DNA from: Methylovulum sp.
GTDB taxonomy: Bacteria; Pseudomonadota; Gammaproteobacteria; Methylococcales; Methylomonadaceae
NCBI GenBank assembly: GCA_030653435.1
Contig: JAURZI010000023.1
Coordinates: forward strand, 1 to 64,000
DNA: 64,000 nt
Reading direction: 5' to 3'
Part shown: in pieces, positions 14,146-25,339 of the stretch
How the letters are laid out: each line of letters begins with the position of its first letter
Numbering within the stretch: position 1 is the first letter of the stretch
Program-made: the position numbers and the translations under genes
Notes under the pieces: model-generated
Database searches by the model: none
What the model was told of the DNA's origin: nothing
Seen by the model: the letters and a program-made list of their open reading frames with translations, nothing else

Positions 14146-14215
14146 GGGTGTTTTTAAAGGCGGGTGTTATCTATCGTAATAAGGGCGTGCCAGGCACGCT
14201 TTTCTGATGCTTGCG

Positions 14216-14273
14216 TATTAATTGTCCCATAAGTTCCAGCGCCCGCCGTTAATCCGTAGGGAACTTCGGGCGC
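14216..14273. repeat. Single-arm copy of the TATTAATTGTCCCATAAGTT repeat with a hairpin
   Basis: TATTAATTGTCCCATAAGTT at 14216-14235 is identical to the arms of the palindrome at 24606-24680. Here only one outer arm is present. It is followed by its own hairpin, GCGCCCG 14239-14245 with CGGGCGC 14267-14273, so this looks like a partial or rearranged member of the same repeat family. It lies between the PepSY gene and the efflux operon and could affect the expression of either. Confidence 0.6.
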
Positions 14274-24439: not shown

Positions 24440-24524
24440 CTAGAGCAGCTGTATTTTTTGGGCAATATCCAGTCTTGCTGCGGCGACATCCCACTGGATA
24501 TTGCGGAAAAACGCGTCTATTAAT
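24440..24524 (-). pseudogene. Detached C-terminal coding remnant of the superoxide dismutase gene
   Basis: On the minus strand the bases just past the second palindrome translate as LIDAFFRNIQW followed by DVAAARLDIAQKIQLL and a TAG at 24440-24442. D-A-F-F-x-N-I-x-W is the conserved C-terminal helix of iron/manganese superoxide dismutases, which the gene at 24662-25339 lacks. If the two palindromes are removed and one ATTAAT is kept, the frame joins exactly as AYVLIDAFF. This stretch is therefore the original end of that gene, now separated from it. Confidence 0.8.
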
Positions 24525-24591
24525 TGTTTCATAAGTAATCGCACCCTAATTTTCAGAATTGTTCCTGCGATTACTTATGAAACAATTAATA
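24518..24591. repeat. Palindromic repeat element B inside the superoxide dismutase gene
   Basis: The 25-base arm at 24518-24542 (beginning TATTAATTGTTTCATAAGT) is perfectly complementary to 24567-24591, with a 24-base centre. Its outer sequence matches element A at 24606 except for two C-to-T differences near the start of the arm, while the inner part differs. The element begins and ends with ATTAATTGT / ACAATTAAT, so the insertion target appears to be ATTAAT or TTAAT. Confidence 0.75.
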
Positions 24592-24605
24592 ACTTATTGA
24601 TTGGA

Positions 24606-24680
24606 TGTATTAATTGTCCCATAAGTTAGCGCACAATAGGATGAGGTTACAGTGCGCTAACTTATGGGACAATTAATACA
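24606..24680. repeat. Palindromic repeat element A, supplying the stop codon of the superoxide dismutase
   Basis: A perfect 29-base inverted repeat has arms at 24606-24634 and 24652-24680 around a 17-base loop. The arms contain TATTAATTGTCCCATAAGTT, which also occurs once at 14216-14235. The right arm overlaps the last codons of the superoxide dismutase, which read V-L-I-V-P and then TAA at 24662-24664. The RNA hairpin would be very stable and may also act on transcription. Sixteen bases separate it from element B. Confidence 0.8.
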
Positions 24681-25339
24681 TAAGCCGTGGCCGACGCGCC
24701 GTAATCCATTTGGTAAGCATGTTCATACATGTCCATTACTAACACCGGCAAGGTCGCGGCGGGCGCATGCAGGTGGTCGGACAGCCAATAATTCTCCAGC
24801 AAACCCGTGTGCAGGTTATAACCCAAAACCACCCAGCCGGAGCCACCGCCGAGTCCGGCGCCGATACGGCGAAATTCTTTTTCCCAAATAGCGTAGCTAC
24901 CAAATGCGTCGCCCAACGCCTTTCGCAGTGTTTCGCCCGCTTTACCGGAACCGCCCAGATTGTGGAAATATAATTCATGCCAAACGACTGATCCGGTGCG
25001 TGTCAAATGTTCGCGCTTAAGATCGTTATAGACGAAAGGCGGTATATCGACCTCTTCCAAGGCCGTGACCAGCCGTTTTTTTACCGTATTTAGCGCGTTG
25101 ACTGCGCCGCTATAATTATTTTCCCAATGCGAAAGGATTAGTTTTTCAGAGATGCCATCCAGTTTCGCAGGATTGAACGGCAGCGGTTTGGGTGTTTGTA
25201 GAGTTGTCAAAGCGGAGCTTAGCGCCGGTATTGCGGGCGTTGGTTCTACAGCAAGGCTATCTGATGCCAACGCAACCAGCGCGGCGCCTGCGGAGGCATT
25301 AACTAAAAATTCACGGCGCGTATAAGGATAAGGGGGCAT
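24662..25339 (-). CDS. Superoxide dismutase (Fe/Mn family), Tat-exported, C-terminally truncated by a repeat
   Basis: From the ATG at 25337-25339, with AAGGAG seven bases upstream, the product has 225 residues. It has a twin-arginine signal (TRREFLVNASAGAALVALA) and an Fe/Mn superoxide dismutase domain. Metal ligands are recognisable: H71 in SHWENNY, H121 in VVWHELYFHN, D203 and H207 in VMDMYEHAY. The normal C-terminal helix after MDYGASATAY is missing; instead four repeat-derived residues (LIVP) precede the stop. The lost tail is still encoded at 24440-24524. The ligands are intact, but loss of about 26 residues could weaken folding or dimerisation. It would remove superoxide in the periplasm next to the cytochromes. 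Confidence 0.85.
   Translation of the reverse strand: MPPYPYTRREFLVNASAGAALVALASDSLAVEPTPAIPALSSALTTLQTPKPLPFNPAKLDGISEKLILSHWENNYSGAVNALNTVKKRLVTALEEVDIPPFVYNDLKREHLTRTGSVVWHELYFHNLGGSGKAGETLRKALGDAFGSYAIWEKEFRRIGAGLGGGSGWVVLGYNLHTGLLENYWLSDHLHAPAATLPVLVMDMYEHAYQMDYGASATAYVLIVP

Follow-up and report, generated by a model that had tools for sequence, protein, structure and literature searches.

ERIC elements are small MITEs with TA ends that lie largely between genes, and we know of no two-hairpin layout in them or in the Correia/NEMIS elements. RUP of Streptococcus pneumoniae, an IS630-Spn1-associated MITE, is described as small, directed to TA targets, bounded by IS630-like ends and furnished with stop codons in all frames, and Correia/NEMIS elements are described as small, largely intergenic MITEs with TA at their ends (PMC2229807). 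REPINs are proposed to replicate as a palindrome doublet with its spacer; single palindromes are treated as remnants, and compensatory changes are reported (PMC3116915). Here we describe an insert, found in a stretch of 64,000 nt of Methylovulum sp. DNA (contig JAURZI010000023.1, positions 1 to 64,000; hereafter the window), that combines features of these systems. We consider it highly probable that it is a composite, non-autonomous two-hairpin MITE of the IS630 family that truncated a superoxide dismutase gene.

An insert within a superoxide dismutase gene

The insert is a pair of hairpins, A and B (Table 1). The arms of hairpin A (24518-24543 and 24566-24591) are 100% complementary, as are those of hairpin B (24605-24634 and 24652-24681), whose outermost three bases are supplied on the left by the spacer and on the right by the dismutase flank. 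The original prediction, based on inspection of the window alone, described palindromes of 29 and 25 bp; both are perfect, and slightly longer, with arms of 30 and 26 nt. As single-stranded DNA the hairpin pair folds at -57.9 kcal/mol (shuffle mean -11.5, z -17.9), and the arm pattern with up to three mismatches matches four times within the window, where 0 matches are expected. The unit is short, has no transposase gene, and leaves no frame open through it: entered from the B end, translation meets a stop after 1, 4 or 6 codons, depending on the frame, and from the A end after 1, 4 or 36 codons, the last of these stops lying inside B. The hairpin feet read TATTAATTG/CAATTAATA, in which we saw by eye no GTAG or CGTC tag. 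An Rfam scan of the window at gathering cut-offs returned 0 matches, a comparison with plasmids gave no match to the element, and its exact pattern was not found in viral contigs.

Table 1. Features of the insert, the interrupted gene and a related remnant in the window
Feature	Position	Strand	Basis
Truncated Fe/Mn superoxide dismutase, 225 aa	24662..25339	-	ORF, Pfam domain; VLIVP-stop end inside hairpin B
Remnant that codes for the missing C-terminal DAFFRNIQWDVAAARLDIAQKIQLL plus stop	24440..24519	-	Reading frame still open
Double-hairpin element, 159 bp including one TA	24520..24678	+ (A to B)	Hairpin search, doublet alignment, orthologue comparison
Left target-site copy, TA	24518..24519	.	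Empty dismutase sites
Right target-site copy, TA	24677..24678	.	Orthologue comparison
Hairpin A, arms of 26 nt (TATTAATTGTTTCATAAGTAATCGCA) separated by 22 nt	24518..24591	.	Pairing, covariation, folding
Hairpin B, arms of 30 nt separated by 17 nt	24605..24681	.	Pairing, covariation, folding
16-nt spacer between hairpins	24592..24607	.	Similar in copies at other loci
Solo B-type end remnant (TATTAATTGTCCCATAAGTTC)	14215..14242	.	Sequence match; apparently decayed, same family

To define the empty site, we searched the truncated protein against 61 genomes, its own included, and aligned the 11 relatives of at least 64% identity at their C-termini. All 11 are uninterrupted, with zero extra residues at the junction, which reads Y-[VI]-[DEGN] throughout; the claim that a repeat had entered a coding dismutase gene is thereby borne out, and no repeat-free relative with the same short C-terminus occurs among the 11, so the claim is not refuted on that count either. 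The ancestral site is GCT TAT G/TA/GAC GCG, that is A-Y-V-D-A, and because this reading requires exactly one TA, the ancestral target is TA and the insert measures 159 bp; the empty site has one TA, and the filled site has a TA on each side. The target had been proposed as ATTAAT/TTAAT, which the 11 orthologue junctions replace with TA. Excision leaving one ATTAAT does keep the frame, as had been pointed out, but an ATTAAT duplication is rejected, since it would leave two residues (Y-V-L-I-D, containing V-L-I-D) that are found in 0/11 orthologues.

The minus-strand dismutase ORF has the C-terminal end YGASATAYVLIVP followed by a stop, four codons into the B end and within the inserted element, in agreement with the predicted VLIVP-stop inside a palindrome. 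Its product matches Pfam Sod_Fe_C at 56.2 bits (profile positions 4-87 of 102), its best solved relatives are superoxide dismutases, and its N-terminus carries a twin-arginine-like leader, judged by eye. Past the element the minus strand continues as LIDAFFRNIQWDVAAARLDIAQKIQLL and a stop, a translation homologous to dismutase C-termini in a frame that is still open, just as the original prediction held; a "recent" insertion would fit this open frame. The truncated protein retains the Asp and His of DMYEH, which we take to be metal ligands. Two further dismutase-like frames lie elsewhere in the same genome (contigs C127 and C153).

The truncation has likely abolished or reduced dismutase function, to judge from the sequence comparison. 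It had been suggested that a shortened enzyme might still be made, an outcome compatible with the MITE explanation; we think it unlikely that the protein is kept in a functional state. Private amino-acid/synonymous changes over 219 codons number 12/31 in the window lineage, not clearly apart from the 1/8, 4/24, 6/15 and 9/32 of four relatives (those usable out of eight sought), and these ratios do not show clear pseudogene decay. Against a retained enzyme, the 26 C-terminal residues that it would lack are present in 11/11 orthologues, its Sod_Fe_C score lies below the 78.9 and 81.4 bits of two orthologues, and, among the five lineages compared, private amino-acid changes are most numerous in that of the window.

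Recurrence, targets and palindromy of the unit

From the loci fetched we collected a sample of 42 deduplicated full doublets in six genomes; in every one of these doublets A, spacer and B follow in that order. The query matches 7 of the 61 genomes, own included, and its own genome has 10 distinct matching places. Four of them are full doublets and three are single A hairpins; the others are an A/B fusion, a single B and a half B, the last being the remnant at 14215-14242 of the window. Some single hairpins read as doublet deletions (L013 and L015). The sequence of a second subfamily matches 14 of the 237 genomes of the taxonomic family, own included, the match in five of the 14 covering only 24-31 bases at one end. 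In the GTDB collection an exact 25-base pattern hit 29 stretches, which belong to M. miyakonense HT12 and to three metagenome genomes, two of Methylovulum and one of Methylococcaceae. Arm counts are highest, at 78, in genome G006 among the four genomes examined.

At four other doublet loci, element-free relatives mostly show a single TA at the empty site, with two TG reads and, at one locus, small indels. The doublet of L042 (G019:C1:134583-134745) lies inside what by eye is an integrase-like gene, a fragment with no Pfam match, in the genome that we read as M. miyakonense HT12, and its empty sites read TA in G018 (95.8% identity) and G008 and TG in G017. At L002/L009 (G000:C49:128921-129080, in the window's own genome) the junction of a histidine kinase and a response regulator is split, with TA in G010, G024 and G023 and TG in an own-genome paralogue; here the element supplies the kinase with an LIVP-stop ending, as in the dismutase, and the start codon ATG of the regulator borrows its A from the TA beside the element. 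L142 (G006:C43:38000-38167) sits in codon four of a gene that by eye looks Uma2-like; its own left dinucleotide is CA, and its empty sites are TA in G018 and G015, two of three relatives tried, G007 not being alignable across the junction. At L045, beside an aldehyde-dehydrogenase-family and a cytidylyltransferase-like gene that we read as proA and nadD, 12 of the 14 relatives compared could be aligned and have no element, some with small indels. Because the element ends are stop-rich, gene truncation and new stop codons at gene junctions result.

The left ends of the 42 doublets are TA in 34 cases, TG, CA or AA in seven, and ambiguous in one of different end form (L052). L142, the one non-TA doublet for which element-free relatives are at hand, has TA in those relatives, and on this basis the non-TA left ends look like later change. 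The right TA may be a duplication made by the transposase or a TA carried by the element; the sequence fits either.

The arms are paired in 90.5% of cells in an alignment of 41 doublets (L216, with an internal deletion, was omitted from the 42). Two-sided changes affect 29 of 53 arm pairs, a count as high in 0/500 shuffles, and 169 cells are changed on both sides as against 59.5 in shuffles (again 0/500); none of five covariation measures was reached by any of the 500 shuffles, with two subfamilies, one with AATCGC and one with GCTTGC arms, contributing much of the signal, so that independent events are fewer than cells. Several B pairs also change on their own. The alternative of pairing the whole unit, A-left with B-right, we reject: 4 of 26 pairs have two-sided changes (216/500 shuffles are as high), although its cell count and covariation score exceed all 500 shuffles, suggesting some correlation between the A and B hairpins. 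The TTAAY form is present at 40 of 41 A-left, 22 A-right, 15 B-left and 26 B-right ends, a bias to the outer ends that fits movement from them, B-right being the weaker case. Both orientations of the B loop are present, in eight and six of 14 copies of one subfamily, and in five and eight of 27 copies of the other, with 14 unclear. Other sequences have taken the place of inner ends, and in some copies these too form palindromes. Because of these compensated arm pairs, both loop orientations and restored inner palindromes, one can entertain the tentative and rather doubtful idea that an active process, whether folding-dependent transposition or template-switch correction of quasi-palindromes, keeps the hairpins palindromic beyond selection on terminal repeats alone. 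If true, such upkeep would mean that an IS630-derived element had converged on a REPIN-like lifestyle.

IS630 ends and candidate mobilisers

A relaxed pattern made from the ends of the unit (19 fixed bases, up to two mismatches) matches in 85 of the 237 family genomes, and a reversed-pattern control in 33 of 237. Among the matches listed are three inward-facing pairs with a spacing of about 1.09 kb (G095, G124 and G137), which bound the elements L311, L328 and L335 of 1093, 1094 and 1095 bp. L311 and L328 each have an intact 337-aa ORF that scores 221.5 and 218.2 bits, respectively, as NCBIfam IS630 family transposase (cut-off 100) and also matches Pfam DDE_3; in L335 the transposase match comes in two overlapping pieces, maybe frameshifted. 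The TA-bounded 26-bp ends of the three elements agree with the outer ends of the window unit at 20-23 of 26 positions and with those of a G006 copy (L035) at 20-24, an identity partly built in, since the elements were found by a pattern from these ends; the controls reach 11-13 (IS630 of G019) and 7-9 (L151 and L149, each scored on its best TA-anchored repeats). Against the A end, the 3,207 plus-strand 26-mers of the window that start with TA outside the element give one best value of 19, as expected of the remnant at 14215, and otherwise at most 16. What is not built into the search is that, between two such ends facing each other, there lies a transposase of the class expected, specific for TA. 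The 1.09-kb IS630-family elements of two sister genera are a likely source of the unit, as far as sequence comparison can tell. A shortened copy of the autonomous element with transposase residues 1-49 and 261-333 (L336/L331, G130:C5:1077-1555) is a possible intermediate on the route to MITEs.

The same end pattern is most abundant in G221 (genus g3), with 98 matches in a 3.1-Mb genome, the most among the 237, which is apparently a separate expansion. In genus g35, L294 and L295 have similar facing ends at distances of about 270 and 140 bases; their interiors differ from each other, and they are not double hairpins.

A helper was sought in G000, G006, G010 and G019, where DDE_3 (PF13358) is found at 4, 0, 10 and 25 places; we fetched 30 of these 39 (16 of the 25 in G019, all in the others). 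A cognate transposase in the host would be expected for an IS630-family MITE but does not define one. The 30 loci of these four draft assemblies yielded no close relative of the sister-genus transposase, the only match being 39% identical (L149); a profile search placed the element at 0/30, and a 9-base core, without the full arm, occurs at three (L149, L163 and L167). Elsewhere, IS630 copies are cut at contig ends (L307 and L324). G006 has no DDE_3 match despite its 78 arms, an abundance that makes it a candidate case of trans-mobilisation or of an extinct helper. Candidate parents that we rejected are the M. miyakonense 1.09-kb IS630, whose ends (TAAGTAATTTGAC...) agree at only 11-13 of 26; the own-genome IS630 at contig C119 (L151) and that of G010 (L149), at 7-9 of 26; and L148, which shows no candidate ends. 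This distinct 1.09-kb IS630, with ends TAAGTAATTTGAC, is present in G019 in 12 or more nearly identical copies (L147, L150, L153 and others).

In the MITE reading, each hairpin would consist of a short loop flanked by two 26-bp terminal inverted repeats of IS630 type; an A arm has just the length of one such end, for which reason the unit can be regarded as a composite of two minimal MITEs. Both hairpins and the spacer would move together from the outer ends of A and B, and an IS630-type transposase acting in trans would insert the unit at the TA of the dismutase codon GTA, leaving TA on both sides. The dismutase frame enters the B end, which offers stops in all three frames within seven codons, so that the protein now ends in VLIVP with its C-terminal segment detached. 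Counting against this reading are the partly built-in similarity of the ends, the reversed-pattern matches in 33 genomes, the lack of a close transposase relative at the 30 loci of the four assemblies, the variable right outer end (TTAAY in 26/41), the TG, CA or AA left ends of 7/42 doublets, and a single B-type hairpin near one Y1 fragment (L243).

This last observation belongs to a REPIN-like alternative, in which a Y1/RAYT transposase would move a palindrome doublet in single-stranded form and duplicate no target. A palindrome doublet does recur as the unit here, and its compensatory changes resemble those of REPINs (PMC3116915); the left dinucleotide is more variable than the right, and Y1 matches occur in all four searched genomes, at 25 loci. 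Of these loci, however, 24 have no element match at E 1e-4, and an exact search for the 9-base core added one partial match (L228), so that a Y1/RAYT gene flanked by the same repeats is not what was found. The one neighbouring hairpin (L243:836-921, G006:C51, about 600 bases from the Y1 fragment) is unsurprising in a genome with 78 arms. As the hairpin foot also has no GTAG tag by eye, and similar TA-bounded ends sit on IS630 elements of sister genera, we regard a REPIN-like origin as distinctly improbable.

The original prediction saw two independent, adjacent hairpin insertions. Each hairpin alone does have the form of a MITE, and single A or B hairpins are present in this genome, but the recurrence of A-spacer-B as a single unit at unrelated loci in six genomes, together with singles that read as deleted doublets, makes this very improbable. 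An assembly artefact joining hairpin-rich contigs, conceivable for a draft genome of 161 contigs, is scarcely credible: both flanks belong to one gene and stay in frame across a single TA, and unlinked loci carry the same unit.

Relation to known elements

The IS630-MITE class is known; in the open-licence literature we found no description of a two-hairpin IS630-derived form or of its link to an IS of sister genera. For the composite MITE that we favor, the locus offers a bacterial MITE caught in a coding gene whose orthologues preserve the empty site, and sister genera have a likely autonomous source for it. REPINs are linked to a different transposase class, and the present unit suggests that an IS630-type (DDE) MITE can adopt the REPIN doublet layout.

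Among plasmid elements of the IS630 family, IS885 and ISAzo32 encode transposases to which that of the sister genera is 43-44% identical, and their best TA-anchored terminal repeats are also 26 bp, at similar positions; their terminal sequence differs, however (TACTAAC... as against TATTAAT... here). The unit resembles RUP in being small, in its TA targets and IS630-like ends, and in its stops in all frames; RUP is 107 bp, whereas here two hairpins form one unit of 159 bp, and an IS with matching ends has come to light in sister genera only. Correia/NEMIS and ERIC elements occur in different hosts, and we liken them to the unit by description rather than by sequence. Unlike the Rickettsia palindromic element, which is in frame and leaves its gene open, the unit stops the dismutase frame. 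With REPINs it shares a doublet with spacer, singles as remnants and compensatory changes; unlike them, it has an inconsistent RAYT association (1 of 25 Y1 loci), no GTAG tag, and IS630-like ends bounded by TA.
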